From positions 248,001 to 312,000 of the forward strand of contig CALJGI010000002.1 of assembly GCA_938074045.1 (NCBI GenBank): 64,000 nt of DNA. Direction: 5' to 3'. Below the pieces are notes generated by a model that worked only from the letters and a program-made list of their open reading frames with translations, ran no database searches and was not told where the DNA came from. Both the position numbers and the translations under genes were made by a program. This DNA is from an uncultured Halieaceae bacterium. GTDB lineage: Bacteria > Pseudomonadota > Gammaproteobacteria > Pseudomonadales > Halieaceae. Of the stretch, positions 58,701 to 63,944 are shown one piece after another (within the stretch, counting starts at the first letter, position 1; every line of letters starts with the position of its first letter).

Positions 58701-59627
58701 CTAAATCCAGCACCAGCCATGGCGCTTGAAAAACGTCCAGCCGGAGCGCACAAACATGGAGATATGGTGCCACCCTTTACGCGCCGAGTATCCACCGTGA
58801 TGCACTATCTGCATGGCCGGAAGGTAGACCAACCTACCCACATCCGCCAGCCTCAATGACAGATCAAAATCTTCAAAGTACATGAAGTATTGATCCGAAA
58901 ATCCATCCACTGCGAGCAGCGCCTCGGTTCGGGTTACCATACAACAACCGCTTGCCAGCGGAACATCCGACTCTGTACCCGTCTGCGTCTGATCTCTCAT
59001 CTCATAACTATGCAGATAGGCGCTGAATTGCTGCTTCAGAAAATCCGGAGCAAACGCCCGCAACAACAGCACCAGTACCGATGGATACCGTTTGCACAAA
59101 TATTGTGGCTGCCCCAATGCATTCACAGCCTGGGGATTGATAACAACGACATCTGGATGTCGGAGCATATATTCCAGAGCCACTACCAACGCGTCGGTGG
59201 ACATTTCCACGTCGGGATTCAGAACCAGGTGATAATCACTGTCTGCGCGAGCCAATGCCAGATTATGTGCTGCCCCAAAGCCAATATTCTCTCCGGATTG
59301 CCACATATCGACCCGATCAAAGCGCCGTTGGGCGTCGTCGTAGATCAAGTGATGCAGTCGTTGCTGATAGACGGCATCGGTTGTATTGTCCACCACCATG
59401 AACTGAATGGACAGCTGCACACCTGCTTCCCGCACGCTTTCGCAGGCAGCATGAAAGGCATCGATAGTCTTACACAACAGATCGAATGAACTGTTGTAGG
59501 TAACTACCGACACGGACATCCGTATCGCCGCGCCGCTTTCCGGCACTGGCTGTTCTATATGTTGAACCATCGAACCGGGCACACCCCGCATGGCTGCTTG
59601 CATTATCTTCAGCCCGGATATTACCAT
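58701..59627 (-). CDS. Glycosyltransferase family 2 (rhamnosyltransferase-like)
   Basis: A 308-residue GT-A fold enzyme. ATG at 59625-59627 follows GAGGG by six bases. Motifs: SVSVVTYNSS opening, ENIGFGAAHNLAL, LVLNPDVEMS (the DxD-type metal/sugar-nucleotide site here as NPD), and YFMYFEDFDLSLRL with the ED catalytic pair. It probably adds a sugar during O-antigen or capsule synthesis, cytoplasmic face. Divergent from the double glycosyltransferase with only 38 bases between starts. Confidence 0.93.
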   Translation of the reverse strand: MVISGLKIMQAAMRGVPGSMVQHIEQPVPESGAAIRMSVSVVTYNSSFDLLCKTIDAFHAACESVREAGVQLSIQFMVVDNTTDAVYQQRLHHLIYDDAQRRFDRVDMWQSGENIGFGAAHNLALARADSDYHLVLNPDVEMSTDALVVALEYMLRHPDVVVINPQAVNALGQPQYLCKRYPSVLVLLLRAFAPDFLKQQFSAYLHSYEMRDQTQTGTESDVPLASGCCMVTRTEALLAVDGFSDQYFMYFEDFDLSLRLADVGRLVYLPAMQIVHHGGYSARKGWHHISMFVRSGWTFFKRHGWCWI

Positions 59628-59665
59628 CTGCGACCCTCTATGCGAACATCGGGCAACACAACAAC

Positions 59666-61576
59666 TTGAAACCAAACCTGTCACTCATTCTCGTCATCTA
59701 TGACATGCCTGACCAGGCTGAGAGGACGCTACACTCACTTTCACTGTCCTACCAGCAGAATGTGGACGCGGCTGACTATGAAGTCATCGTGGTTGAGCAT
59801 GCCTCGAATCGCAATCTGGGCGAGCAGCGGGCGACCCGTTTCCCCGGTAACTTCCGCTATTTTCTCCGCGACGAATCCCTGCCATCACCTGTACCCGGGG
59901 TGCGATTTGGCGTGGAAGAAGCGGAATCGGACCTGCTGGCGATTATGGTTGATGGCGCCCGCATGGCGAGTCCTGGTCTGATAGCACAGATACTATCAGC
60001 AGCAGGTAAAGACCCCCTGACGGTGGTAACAGTGCCCGGTTACCATATTGGGCACATGCTGCAACAGGAAGCGGTTAAACACGGCTACACGGTGGCGGAA
60101 GAAGAAAAACTGCTCCGACAAATAAAATGGCCAGAGGATGGCTATCGCCTGTTCGATATAAGTGTATTCAGTGGTTCCTGCAAAGCAGGCTTCCTGCGTC
60201 CCAATGCAGAGAGCAACTGCCTGTGCTTGCACCGAGACCTTTGGGACGAAACCGGCGGTATGGATCCACGCTTCACGGAGACCGGGGGTGGACAGGCCAA
60301 TCCCGACCTGTACAAACGCGTATGCGAACATCCGGGCATACGTCTGCTTGTGCTTCCCGGTGAGGGTACCTTTCATCAGTTTCACGGCGGAGTAACCACC
60401 GGTCGGCCACCGGTGGAGCGTGAAATGCATATGCAAAATCACTTTGAGCAGTACAAGCAGTTGCGGGGTGAGTACTATCGCCAGCCGCAGACGGTGGCGG
60501 AACTTTACGGACATGTGCCGCAGCCAGCACTGAAATTCTTGCACCAGTCAATATTGAACACCGGCTTCAAGGAATCAACAGCGACGTCAATGCAGCGGCA
60601 AAATGCGCTACCACAACTTTCAGTCATCGTCATCGGTTATCGAATGGCTCAGCAGTTGGTCAATACTTTGCGCTCCCTGAGTCCCGATTATCAACAGGAT
60701 ATAGCTGCCCGGGACTATGAGGTTATTGTAGTGGAAAACGCCTCGGAGGAGGTGCTGGATGCCGCCAGCGTGGCCGCGCTGCCAGCCAATTTTTCCTACC
60801 ATTTGCGGCAGGAGTCAGGCAAATCCCCAGTACCGGCGATCAATTATGCCTTTGACCTGTGCCGCGGAGATTTTATCGGTTTGATCATGGACGGCGCGAG
60901 AATGGTGACTCCTGGAACGCTGGCCACTGCGCTTCAGGCATGGACACTGGATCAACAAGCCCTGGTCGCCGTTCCCGGATACCATCTGGGTACTGCAGAA
61001 CAGCACGAAATCGAGATAGCAGGGGAAGCACTGGCTGCGGAACGGCAAATGCTGGCGTCAATTGATTGGGTCAATAACGGCTACGATCTGTTCACCATCT
61101 CCACTTTCAGCGGTGCCAACCGACACGGCTACCTGCACCCCATCATGGAATGCAATTGTGTCTTTGCCTCCGCACAAAACTTCAAGCGCATTGGCTATGC
61201 CAATCCTGACTTCACCATGCCCGGTGGCGGCAGTATCAATCTGCACATGTATCGCAGCCTCGGCATGCTGCCGGAGACAAAGGTCTACGTCTTGCCGGGC
61301 GAGGGTTCTTTTCATCAGTACCACGGCGGCGTGACCACTTCCACCTACGCCGAAAGAGAGGCTGAAATACATCGACACCGCGTGCAATTGCACAGCTATT
61401 GGCCAGGAGGCTTTCATAGCCTGCGCCGGGAGCCTACACTACTCGGCAAGGTGCCAACCCAGGCGCAACCATTTCTTCGGGAATCCCTGACGCGCAGCGC
61501 CAATCGAACCCGGAAATTGACCGAACAGGGCCTGCCACTGTGGGTCGATGATATTGCTGCAGCAAGCCAGGACTGA
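59666..61576 (+). CDS. Double-domain glycosyltransferase-like protein (internal duplication)
   Basis: A 636-residue protein made of two related halves, about residues 1-310 and 315-636. Each half opens with a GT-A-like beta strand (LSLILVIYDM; LSVIVIGYRM), then YEVIVVE(H/N)AS, a motif DGARM (residues ~94 and ~411) in place of a classical DxD, and GEG(T/S)FHQ(F/Y)HGGVTT near the end. The start is TTG at 59666-59668; there is no clear Shine-Dalgarno or ATG. GT2-like fold is likely, but sugar transfer by this family with DGAR is not established here. The next gene begins after four bases. Confidence 0.8.
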   Translation: MKPNLSLILVIYDMPDQAERTLHSLSLSYQQNVDAADYEVIVVEHASNRNLGEQRATRFPGNFRYFLRDESLPSPVPGVRFGVEEAESDLLAIMVDGARMASPGLIAQILSAAGKDPLTVVTVPGYHIGHMLQQEAVKHGYTVAEEEKLLRQIKWPEDGYRLFDISVFSGSCKAGFLRPNAESNCLCLHRDLWDETGGMDPRFTETGGGQANPDLYKRVCEHPGIRLLVLPGEGTFHQFHGGVTTGRPPVEREMHMQNHFEQYKQLRGEYYRQPQTVAELYGHVPQPALKFLHQSILNTGFKESTATSMQRQNALPQLSVIVIGYRMAQQLVNTLRSLSPDYQQDIAARDYEVIVVENASEEVLDAASVAALPANFSYHLRQESGKSPVPAINYAFDLCRGDFIGLIMDGARMVTPGTLATALQAWTLDQQALVAVPGYHLGTAEQHEIEIAGEALAAERQMLASIDWVNNGYDLFTISTFSGANRHGYLHPIMECNCVFASAQNFKRIGYANPDFTMPGGGSINLHMYRSLGMLPETKVYVLPGEGSFHQYHGGVTTSTYAEREAEIHRHRVQLHSYWPGGFHSLRREPTLLGKVPTQAQPFLRESLTRSANRTRKLTEQGLPLWVDDIAAASQD

Positions 61577-61579
61577 CGA

Positions 61580-62365
61580 ATGAACATATATTTTCCACCC
61601 TCGATCCAGAAGTTCGAACCCAAGCGAATGGTATTCAGCACCTGGGTCGATCACATGGCTTTCGGGTATGACCTGGTGGAATGCATACGACCAAAGGTCG
61701 TGGTCGAACTTGGCACCTACAACGGTTTATCGTTTTTCACGTTTTGCCAGTCAATGAAAGAAAATGACGTAGAGGGCATGTGCTATGCCGTAGACACCTG
61801 GGAGGGTGATTCACATACAGGTGGCTACGACACATCAATCATTGATGATGTTCGCGCACATGCGCGGGAACACTACCGCGGCATCACCTATTTGCTGCAA
61901 ATGTATTTCAATGATGCGGTGCAGCACTTTGAGGATGAGACTATTGATCTGCTGCACATTGATGGTCTGCATACATATGAGGCGGTGAAAGAAGACTTCG
62001 AGACCTGGTTTCCGAAGGTGAGTCCCGGTGGCATTGTGCTATTCCACGATATAGAAGCCCGCATGAAAGACTATGGTGTCTGGAAATTCTGGGGAGAATT
62101 GCAGGCAAGCCATGAAACCTTCACGTTCCTGCACGGCTTCGGATTGGGCGTTTTGCGCAAGGCCGGCGGTCAGCGAGAAACCCTGCAGCTACTGGAGTTG
62201 CTGTTTCACAGTCGGCCCGGGGAGCAGCAAAAACTGCGTCAGCTCTACGTGCATGCCAGCCACTACATGGACACCAGACGAAAGGCCCGACGACTGGACG
62301 CCCAGCTAAACAACCAAGCCCAACCAAAAGGTGGTCAGGGCAAATTGCCAGCGGCCAAAACCTGA
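61580..62365 (+). CDS. Class I SAM-dependent methyltransferase
   Basis: A 261-residue protein with a Rossmann-like methyltransferase pattern: VVVELGTYNGLSFF (SAM-binding loop, residues ~40-53), then CYAVDTWEGD and DLLHIDGLHTYEAV, features of the cephalosporin hydroxylase/Methyltransf_24 group that acts on sugars and phenols. It begins four bases after the double glycosyltransferase and is likely cotranscribed, so a sugar O-methylation role is reasonable but not proven. Confidence 0.88.
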   Translation: MNIYFPPSIQKFEPKRMVFSTWVDHMAFGYDLVECIRPKVVVELGTYNGLSFFTFCQSMKENDVEGMCYAVDTWEGDSHTGGYDTSIIDDVRAHAREHYRGITYLLQMYFNDAVQHFEDETIDLLHIDGLHTYEAVKEDFETWFPKVSPGGIVLFHDIEARMKDYGVWKFWGELQASHETFTFLHGFGLGVLRKAGGQRETLQLLELLFHSRPGEQQKLRQLYVHASHYMDTRRKARRLDAQLNNQAQPKGGQGKLPAAKT

Positions 62366-62394: not shown

Positions 62395-63129
62395 TCAGAC
62401 GTTTCCCTGTGGCAGATGCTGCCACAGCGTATCGTGTGAATCGCCTCCCAAACCGAGCGTATTAGTGTAGTAGTACAATGCCACCGATTTGCGCGTGACG
62501 CCTTCGGGACAAAGCAGCGGATGCGGATGACCGTGAAATGATGTGGATGTAGTACTGAAAATGACGCATCGCCCAGCGGCAGGGGCAATTTTTTGTCGAC
62601 AGCTTGCCATATCCTCTGACCAGAGTTCCAGGTCACCACCCCAGGCTTGATCCCAGTCTTCATTAAAGTAAATCAACAGATTCAAGCGCCGATCCAGACC
62701 AAAAGCGGGATGGCGGTTAAAATCGGCGTGCACCTGCAAAAATCCGCCACTCTCGGTCTGGTGAATACCGCCGCCCAACAAGTGGGGGTCGGGCAGAATG
62801 TTTTCTATTCCACTCATTCCCTCCAGCAGGGTGACAAAGCGACCGGCATTGAGCTCCCAGTACAATCGCCTGAAGGCAATATCCACGCCCATCTCCCGGG
62901 ATACCCATCGCTTGCGGAACTGGGCCGCCGTGCCATCCGCCGCATCCGCCGACCGGTCCTCCTGTCCCGGCTTGACCCGTGACTGCGGAAACAGGTCGGC
63001 CAATACAGTCACCAACTCCGGCGCAAGAAAGTTATCGATCACGATATGGGGAAAGGGATCAGCGCTGCGATAGGATTCCGCGCCGCCGACCATTTGTCGC
63101 TCCAGGCTTTGGTAATCTAACAGGTTCAT
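62395..63129 (-). CDS. 2-oxoglutarate/Fe(II)-dependent oxygenase, copy 1
   Basis: A 244-residue oxygenase of the prolyl-hydroxylase-like group. The iron ligands are His134, Asp136 (VHADF) and His199 (SFHGHP), with the 2-oxoglutarate-binding Arg213 (TRKS). It is a paralogue of the upstream neighbour, sharing LPDP.L.GGGIHQ and AGRCVIF. It could hydroxylate a peptide, amino acid or sugar. It overlaps the upstream copy by four bases and is cotranslated. Confidence 0.92.
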   Translation of the reverse strand: MNLLDYQSLERQMVGGAESYRSADPFPHIVIDNFLAPELVTVLADLFPQSRVKPGQEDRSADAADGTAAQFRKRWVSREMGVDIAFRRLYWELNAGRFVTLLEGMSGIENILPDPHLLGGGIHQTESGGFLQVHADFNRHPAFGLDRRLNLLIYFNEDWDQAWGGDLELWSEDMASCRQKIAPAAGRCVIFSTTSTSFHGHPHPLLCPEGVTRKSVALYYYTNTLGLGGDSHDTLWQHLPQGNV

Positions 63130-63944
63130 TCAAGATCCGGCCGTAACCCCTCCGGCAGTTTCTGCCATTCGGTCGCGCGGGTGGGCTCGACATCGGCGTC
63201 TTCACGTCCACGCGTGTAGTAATAAAGCGCTATGGATTTCCGGGTGTGCCCCGCGGGGCAGGACACGACTTCTGGATGACCGTGAAAGGATTTGTCCGAC
63301 GTGTTAAAAATTACACAGCGTCCGGCCAACGGTCGGATGCGACGACCGCAGGATTGCATGTCCGGATCCCACAACTCGAGATGTCCGCCCCATTCGTCCT
63401 GCCAGTCCGGATTCAGATAAACCAGCACGTTGACACGACGGTCCAACTGGTAGTGTCGATGCCGCGTAAAATCAGCGTGTACCCCAAGGACGCCACCAGG
63501 CAGTACCTGGTGAATGCCACCCCCTTGTAGTTTGGGATCCGGCAGCAGACCCGTGATACCGGTCAGGCGTTCCAGAAAGCGGATAAAGCTTCCGGAATTC
63601 ATTTCCAGAATCAACTCGCGCAAGGAGGGTCCCATCTCAGTCACCGAACACAGGCCCAGTTTGTTGTGCTGCCAATGCTCACCCGAGGAAGAGCGCGGAC
63701 TCAACTGCCGCCAACTCACCGATGCCTCCGGCGATGGAAATTCTTCGATCAAATGCTGTACGGCATCTGCCTCGATAAACCGCTCCAGCAGAATATTTGG
63801 ATAGGGCTGGGCTGCGCCGTATTGGTCCTTGAGCTGATCCGCCTGCCCTATCAACCTTTCTATATCCAGAATGGGAAGAGCGCGCAGCGATTCCACTGCG
63901 GAAGGGACCTGACTTGGGTTTTCAGAGTTGGGCACTAAGGACAA
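63126..63944 (-). CDS. 2-oxoglutarate/Fe(II)-dependent oxygenase, copy 2
   Basis: A 272-residue paralogue of the neighbouring oxygenase. Iron ligands are His156, Asp158 and His221, the 2-oxoglutarate arginine is Arg235, and the shared core is DRRVN.L.YLN.DW...WGGHLELW. Its N-terminal 40 residues differ. The two genes are in tandem with a four-base ATGA overlap and may form a heterodimer or act on successive positions. The right edge of the window is 56 bases upstream of its start. Confidence 0.92.
   Translation of the reverse strand: MSLVPNSENPSQVPSAVESLRALPILDIERLIGQADQLKDQYGAAQPYPNILLERFIEADAVQHLIEEFPSPEASVSWRQLSPRSSSGEHWQHNKLGLCSVTEMGPSLRELILEMNSGSFIRFLERLTGITGLLPDPKLQGGGIHQVLPGGVLGVHADFTRHRHYQLDRRVNVLVYLNPDWQDEWGGHLELWDPDMQSCGRRIRPLAGRCVIFNTSDKSFHGHPEVVSCPAGHTRKSIALYYYTRGREDADVEPTRATEWQKLPEGLRPDLE

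Follow-up and report, generated by a model that had tools for sequence, protein, structure and literature searches.

INTRODUCTION

Proteins of the GT-A fold that lack the DxD motif are known both as enzymes and as proteins without catalysis. In PMC7185993, GT14 and bacterial GT6 are given as GT-A enzymes that have no DxD and are metal-independent, GT14 using basic side chains together with a Glu base, and COSMC as a GT-A protein that lost both motifs and turned into a non-catalytic chaperone. The stem of human fukutin-related protein (FKRP; PF22921; PDB 6kaj) has a GT-A-like fold without the catalytic motif; according to PMC6965139, it resembles ppGalNAcT-10 but is devoid of the catalytic motif of this enzyme, it binds a phosphate of the acceptor, and the authors infer that it has no transferase activity. 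E. coli K4 chondroitin polymerase (K4CP; PDB 2z86, 2z87) carries two GT-A domains per chain, likewise the arrangement of the protein considered here.

The present work concerns a gene in a stretch of 64,000 nucleotides (the window) from an uncultured marine Halieaceae bacterium (contig CALJGI010000002.1, positions 248,001 to 312,000), whose product carries DGAR at the DxD position of both of its halves. Sequence comparison places it in a genuine GT2-like family, whose active site is unusual and for which we found no description among the models and the literature searched. Because the usual metal-binding motif is missing and sugar-modifying enzymes adjoin the gene, the protein probably builds, in an unusual way, a surface coat of decorated sugars.

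RESULTS

Two GT2-like halves with a predicted GT-A fold

The gene and its two halves are located as follows; the domain types are described below.

59666..61573, forward strand: two-domain DGAR protein, 636 amino acids, open frame 59666-61576, a type I and type II fusion as judged from tree and gene order
59666..60598, forward strand: first half, type I DGAR domain with predicted GT-A fold (tree, model, VIA match)
60599..61573, forward strand: second half, type II DGAR domain with predicted GT-A fold (tree, model, VIA match)

The frame begins with TTG and is open for 54 codons further 5', so that the start is uncertain. Aligned with each other, the halves are 39% identical over 305 amino acids with a single gap (E 2e-72), far beyond chance, and both contain DGAR and GEGxFHQxHGGVTT. 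The tandem of GT2-like halves with repeated motifs that the first-pass annotation had described is thus confirmed. The segment YEVIVVE, which it had placed in both halves, is exact in each and continues as VEHAS in the first and VENAS in the second.

Structure prediction of each half, a check proposed at the same stage, gave a GT-A fold in both cases (AlphaFold; pLDDT 92.9 and pTM 0.90 for the first half, pLDDT 94.0 and pTM 0.93 for the second), and both halves are confidently predicted to be GT-A folds. The best VIA match of either half is 2z86_D (Z 21.9, rmsd 2.9 and 226 aligned for the first; Z 20.5, rmsd 5.4 and 250 aligned for the second), and further fold matches are TarS, TarP, AvpGT, WrtF, a Leptospira glycosyltransferase and ppGalNAc transferases. 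In a viral fold library, the best 50 of 907 matches are 9-16% identical and mostly named as GT2-type enzymes. The sixth fold match of the second-half model is a Catovirus CTV1 protein (A0A1V0S9B9, BFVD; 14% identity) named as a glycosyltransferase and methyltransferase domain protein, a domain pairing similar to that seen with DGAR.

Among named glycosyltransferase families, none exceeded its cut-off except the broad PF00535 (Glycos_transf_2; whole protein E 4.2e-11, 43.5 bits, cut-off 23.3) and, with the whole protein, PF13641 (28.9 bits, cut-off 27). PF00535 was detected in 64/67 family copies at E<=0.01; the second half alone reached 23.1 bits, just below the cut-off, and for the first half cut at residue 311 no Pfam match was listed. 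The nearest NCBIfam models at E<=0.01 are EpsD (56/67 copies), MftF (32/67) and PglI (17/67). However, the window protein scores 38.2 bits against a cut-off of 370 for EpsD (NF041875), short of the equivalog threshold, and 20.6 against 500 for PglI (NF050050), and MftF (TIGR03965) is absent from its match list. With NCBIfam matches this far below cut-off, we found no GT2 subfamily already described as having DGAR. Likewise, no paper in the searched literature combined DGAR with 'glycosyltransferase', and the family is absent from the titles and abstract openings of the searched literature on metal-independent GT2, gene clusters for sulfated polysaccharides, clusters with TylF, and capped O-chains.

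The catalytic aspartates are absent and a set of polar residues is invariant

The family was sampled in 58 genomes, that of the host included (19 with a match), by a contig-level search (16 loci) and in flanking stretches. This gave 70 domain copies above 200 bits, the next-best protein scoring 24 bits. L034, which is almost the same as L035, and the degenerate L031:7441-8373 were left out of alignments A1 and A2; A4 holds 33 of the 70 copies and the second half of the window protein, and A5 and A6 hold 44 chosen copies. The motifs of the two halves are:

59951..59962, forward strand: DGAR of the first half, DxD position (D96, G97 and A98 invariant in A2)
60284..60292, forward strand: GGG of the first half, in the place of the canonical GT2 xED region (invariant in A2)
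60359..60391, forward strand: GEGTFHQFHGG of the first half, probable C-His region (E233, H237, Q238 and H240 invariant in A2)
60890..60901, forward strand: DGAR of the second half, DxD position (D97, G98 and A99 invariant; position 100 R in 51 and H in 16 of 67)
61223..61231, forward strand: GGG of the second half, in the place of the canonical GT2 xED region (invariant in A1)
61298..61330, forward strand: GEGSFHQYHGG of the second half, probable C-His region (E234, H238, Q239 and H241 invariant in A1)

In the numbering of the second half, D97-G98-A99, E183, GGG 208-210, E234, H238, Q239 and H241 are kept in 67/67 family copies, and position 100 is basic in every one of them (51 Arg, 16 His). 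A second, more diverse set, with partly overlapping rows, shows the same residues in 44/44 copies, the only departure being a single Ser at 208. Family-wide, the conserved polar or charged positions number seven: D97, position 100, E183, E234, H238, Q239 and H241. The metal-binding Asp of DxD is Ala in 67/67 copies, and no copy has an acidic residue at positions 98 to 100. The catalytic Asp of xED is absent in either register, position 211 being mostly L, F, S, Q, M or A and position 213 N in 63/67; a profile comparison with the canonical GT2 neighbour had a probability of 15% and stopped before the xED region, which left the register unfixed. H238 and H241 are invariant, their equivalence to the C-terminal metal His being judged by sequence position only. 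An N follows VE in 66/67 copies (VEN), the first half of the window protein alone having H.

As a control, the host genome yielded 11 GT2 matches in 10 proteins, and the eight non-DGAR proteins all keep the third-position Asp of DxD, as judged by eye from the sequences. The replacement of DxD by DGAR in both halves, as annotated at first pass, therefore holds. In the alignment with K4CP, DGAR lies over DSDD (weak domain score, 8.5 bits).

Three kinds of DGAR domain and the origin of the fusion

The DGAR domain is rare and patchy. It was found in at least 10/398 genomes of the phylum, in at least 7/274 genomes at class level and in at least 2/289 genomes of the class of G430 (same phylum), the searched-from genome being counted in each case. 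It also occurs in records titled SAR324, Deltaproteobacteria, Acidimicrobiia and Chloroflexi, and in three alphaproteobacterial plasmid records. A phage origin was considered and rejected, no phage record having matched. Near-identical DGAR pairs lie on a 'Chloroflexi' MAG contig and on a gammaproteobacterial MAG contig (L034/L035); the 'Chloroflexi' pair may be a binning error.

The tree and the motifs suggest three kinds of DGAR domain. Type I is marked by VEN (the window copy excepted), DGAR and, in most copies, GGGxxNLDxYKR. In type II, DGAR is combined in most copies with GGGxxNLHx[Y/F]R. VDNGS is usual in type III, where 16/22 copies have DGAH and the other six, among them the host's own paralogue L023:4052-5161, have DGAR. 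The first half of the window protein clusters among the type I copies on an unstarred branch (UFB/SH-aLRT 89/92) and the second falls in a starred type II group (100/98) with L025, L027 and L040. In both L030 and L056, the order of genes is a canonical GT2 (reverse), a sulfotransferase-like gene, type I and type II, all separate. The window has this same order minus the sulfotransferase, with types I and II fused. Because types I and II are separate neighbouring genes in the same order in other genomes, tree and gene order identify the window gene as a fusion of two pre-existing adjacent paralogues. The duplication proposed at first pass was rejected as a recent internal event, since the halves belong to different subfamilies of the tree, the old subfamilies I and II, which elsewhere are separate adjacent genes. 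L026 is a second fusion, whose halves are placed elsewhere in the tree, so fusion probably arose more than once.

Five DGAR copies are present in the cluster of L030 and three in that of L024, and most family copies are of single-domain length. L031:7441-8373, which adjoins an intact copy, is a natural pseudo-domain in which DGA and most motifs are gone; it is the only one of the 70 copies without DGA.

The first half deviates from other type I copies

At 7/72 columns kept by the other 23 type I copies, the first half of the window protein has a different residue; among the others, the number of such columns ranges from 0 to 5. For the second half it is 2/89, which is ordinary for type II (range 1 to 8). 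Three of the seven changes affect residues that are near-invariant family-wide (VEN to VEH, AxN to GxR), and the DGAR, GGG and HQxH segments are intact. These changes hint at a donor site that is altered or lost, and even in a family of active enzymes the first half may have no activity.

Methyltransferase and sulfotransferase genes accompany the DGAR domain

The DGAR gene is surrounded in the window by the following genes.

58704..59684, reverse strand: canonical GT2, rhamnosyltransferase-like, divergent neighbour (PF00535, E 2.9e-8)
61580..62362, forward strand: class I SAM methyltransferase, Methyltransf_24, TylF-like (PF13578, E 5e-29; PF05711, E 8.8e-6)
62398..63129, reverse strand: 2OG-Fe(II) oxygenase a (PF13640, E 1.2e-18)
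63129..63944, reverse strand: 2OG-Fe(II) oxygenase b, paralogue of a, 44% identical (PF13640, E 9.9e-21)

Homologues of the canonical GT2 are found in DGAR loci L030, L056, L057 and L059, and homologues of the methyltransferase lie beside the DGAR domain or are fused with it in other genomes. Past the window, the same contig encodes a sulfatase, a PhyH-type oxygenase and a polysaccharide-export ABC transporter, the Wzm/Wzt-type transporter genes being ∼5 kb downstream of the DGAR gene.

The pairing with a methyltransferase, already pointed out in the first-pass annotation, recurs in 15/19 DGAR genomes (own included) against 0/39 others (p 1.3e-10), in this and the following tests with related genomes counted as independent. 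The methyltransferase is within 165 bp of the DGAR match in 14/15 cases, the remaining one being on a separate short contig (adjacency distances were taken by hand, match to match, from coordinates). A small sulfotransferase-like gene is a partner as strong as the methyltransferase: at E<=1e-50 it is present in 17/19 DGAR genomes versus 2/39 others (p 1.3e-10), within 190 bp of the DGAR match in 14/17 and within 5 kb in the other three. Two members of the family of this gene (query L041) score 25.3 and 26.7 bits with PF13469, just under the cut-off of 27. The host genome is one of the two DGAR genomes without such a gene at E<=1e-50; at E<=1e-20, its only match is one domain of a 1255-codon frame located elsewhere. 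As to the 2OG oxygenases, close homologues (E<=1e-60) occur in 6/19 DGAR genomes versus 0/39 (p 7e-4), all within 1 kb, so that the co-occurrence suggested at first pass holds only for an occasional partner. The limits of 1e-50 for the sulfotransferase and 1e-60 for the oxygenase were chosen after the tables were known; with the 1e-20 limit of the searches, 23 genomes have the sulfotransferase (18 with DGAR) and 10 have the oxygenase (seven with DGAR).

Ten long DGAR proteins were scanned for extra domains. Methyltransf_24 is fused with the DGAR domain in L028 and L077 and also in L083, where the order is reversed. Other fusion partners are TylF (L081), RMNT/CmcI (L086, on a plasmid of Rhodobacter sp. 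CZR27), Sulfotransfer_3 (L078) and TPR (L079). In L085, L036 and L026, the domain scan found GT2 only. L076 shows the same methyltransferase fusion (phmmer), and in both L076 and L077 the domain that carries the methyltransferase is of type II. The L075-L077 cluster comprises a sulfotransferase-like gene, type I, type II, a 2OG oxygenase, a sulfatase and wzm/wzt homologues.

The host has a third DGAR domain (L023:4052-5161; G000:C2), single-domain and ∼32 kb past the right end of the window, which adjoins a divergent 1255-codon frame joining sulfotransferase, GT2 and GT1-type domains. A set of MBOAT acyltransferase, methyltransferase, SDR ketoreductase and AMP-ligase genes (L022:1260-5872; G000:C2) recurs in two DGAR loci, L027 and L028, the latter having no SDR; its products may provide the glycan with an acyl group. 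On plasmid pBSY17_1 of Sphingobium sp. RAC03 (L084, 8714-13185), a DGAR gene is located between an acyl carrier protein gene and PhyH dioxygenase and fatty acyl-AMP ligase genes.

Resemblance to the FKRP stem

The FKRP stem is the closest solved sequence over the DGAR stretch and the sole solved chain with DGAR in the printed alignment. Whole-domain profile A1 reached it at E 0.18, truncated profile A4 at E 0.42 and the more diverse 44-row whole-domain profile at E 0.012. With a 76-column profile around DGAR, FKRP was the first match (E 4.4e-4, an optimistic value as the region was picked after the first FKRP matches; the next match had 0.31), with DGAR over DGAR, and the placing of DGAR in FKRP at the DxD position follows from this alignment alone. 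A canonical GT2 profile, a weak control of five sequences, did not retrieve FKRP at E<=10. In the reverse search, FKRP_N (PF22921) reached 1/67 copies at E 0.1, as a dozen unrelated families likewise reach single copies, and 0/44 copies of the diverse set. Over the cut-off, PF22921 was found in none of 396 genomes; its sub-cut-off matches are in nine genomes, none of them among the DGAR genomes of the phylum search.

DISCUSSION

The explanation that we prefer, and hold to be about equally likely to be right or wrong, is that the protein is a GT2-like DGA[R/H] type I-II fusion, a metal-independent GT2 variant taking part in decorated surface-glycan assembly. Each domain would bind a nucleotide sugar via the kept [E/D]NxS and the first Asp, the basic residue of DGA[R/H] would supply the charge otherwise provided by the metal, in the manner of the basic side chains of GT14, and a kept Glu (E183 or E234) or His would activate the acceptor; the roles given to E183, E234, H238 and R100 are guesses made from their positions. 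The two domains would each contribute one of two successive sugars to a polysaccharide of the cell surface. The neighbouring enzyme would O-methylate these sugars, which in many relatives would also be sulfated, and the polymer would leave via the nearby ABC exporter. From the methyl- and sulfotransferase links, the fusions and the wzm/wzt homologues, we infer that the locus assembles a methylated, often sulfated surface glycan. The three to five copies of some clusters are what would be expected of enzymes making different linkages.

The loss of DxD and xED also marks the non-catalytic COSMC (PMC7185993), and the FKRP stem, the solved sequence nearest to the DGAR stretch, too is without the catalytic motif (PMC6965139); these points argue against a transferase. 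The DGAR domains might then be GT-A-derived modules that hold the acceptor glycan for paired or fused methyl-, sulfo- and other transferases, as the FKRP stem would, a possible role that we nevertheless consider unlikely. Such docking would fit the loss of both catalytic Asp, the fusion to four modifying domain families (Methyltransf_24, TylF, CmcI and sulfotransferase) and the DGAR of FKRP in the same alignment place (E 4.4e-4 focused, 0.012 with the 44-row profile), where the five-row canonical GT2 profile, a weak control, misses FKRP at E<=10. It would also fit what PMC6965139 reports, that the FKRP stem is inferred to lack glycosyltransferase activity and binds a phosphate of the acceptor. 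However, the seven conserved polar or charged positions are more in keeping with catalysis, some clusters have three to five copies and most copies are of single-domain length. Moreover, the focused region was picked after the FKRP match, the whole-domain A1 and truncated A4 profiles giving 0.18 and 0.42, FKRP_N finds 1/67 copies at E 0.1 and 0/44 in reverse, and the nine genomes with sub-cut-off PF22921 matches are not among the DGAR genomes. Catalysis is ranked above docking on the strength of the polar residues that never vary and of the clusters with several copies. That the DGAR domains are bacterial non-transferring glycan-docking GT-A domains, kin to the FKRP stem, which pass the nascent surface glycan on to the methyl- and sulfotransferases paired with or fused to them, strikes us as rather doubtful; if true, FKRP would be the animal example of a bacterial design. 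The DGAR match offers a possible bacterial model for the FKRP stem.

A division of labour between the halves, compatible with the preferred explanation and akin to the pairing of one active with one acceptor-binding site considered at first pass, can be put forward only tentatively. The second half would be the active transferase, and the first would have degenerated to a structural or acceptor-binding partner after loss of the sulfotransferase neighbour. The first half has the most changes of the 24 type I copies (7/72, against 2/89 for the second half in its own type), in L030 and L056, where the genes are ordered alike, type I is directly preceded by a sulfotransferase-like gene, and the only such match of the host (E<=1e-20) is the domain in the 1255-codon frame elsewhere. 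On the other hand, the first half has lost none of D, R, E, GGG and GEG.FHQ.HGG, and the type I copies of L031 and L032 also differ, at five and four positions. An ordinary K4CP-like bifunctional GT2 polymerase, still using metal via other ligands, appears quite improbable: K4CP, also a two-domain GT-A protein, is the best structural and sequence match and the conserved His pair could bind metal, but both DxD motifs are replaced where K4CP has DSDD in one domain, and no copy offers an acidic residue at positions 98 to 100.

As a GT-A family without either catalytic Asp yet with an invariant polar set, the DGAR proteins would represent either a further metal-free route inside GT2, as in the metal-independent transferase that we favour, or glycan-docking pseudoenzymes. 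The repeated methyl- and sulfotransferase fusions hint at where mostly marine bacteria may place methyl and sulfate on surface glycans.

Compared with known systems, the FKRP stem shares with the DGAR domains DGAR and a Pro four residues past the Arg in the same alignment place, but the match is short and the stem is joined to a nucleotidyltransferase-fold catalytic domain, unlike DGAR. GT14 and bacterial GT6, other families likened here by description, have lost DxD and are metal-free, as proposed for DGAR. K4CP is the best solved fold match of both halves, and by sequence, too, the family profile matches it best (E 8.7e-8). The Asp motifs that such a polymerase has at the DxD and xED places are nonetheless absent from both halves: in the printed alignments, K4CP has DSDD and GGE where the DGAR proteins have DGAR and GGG.
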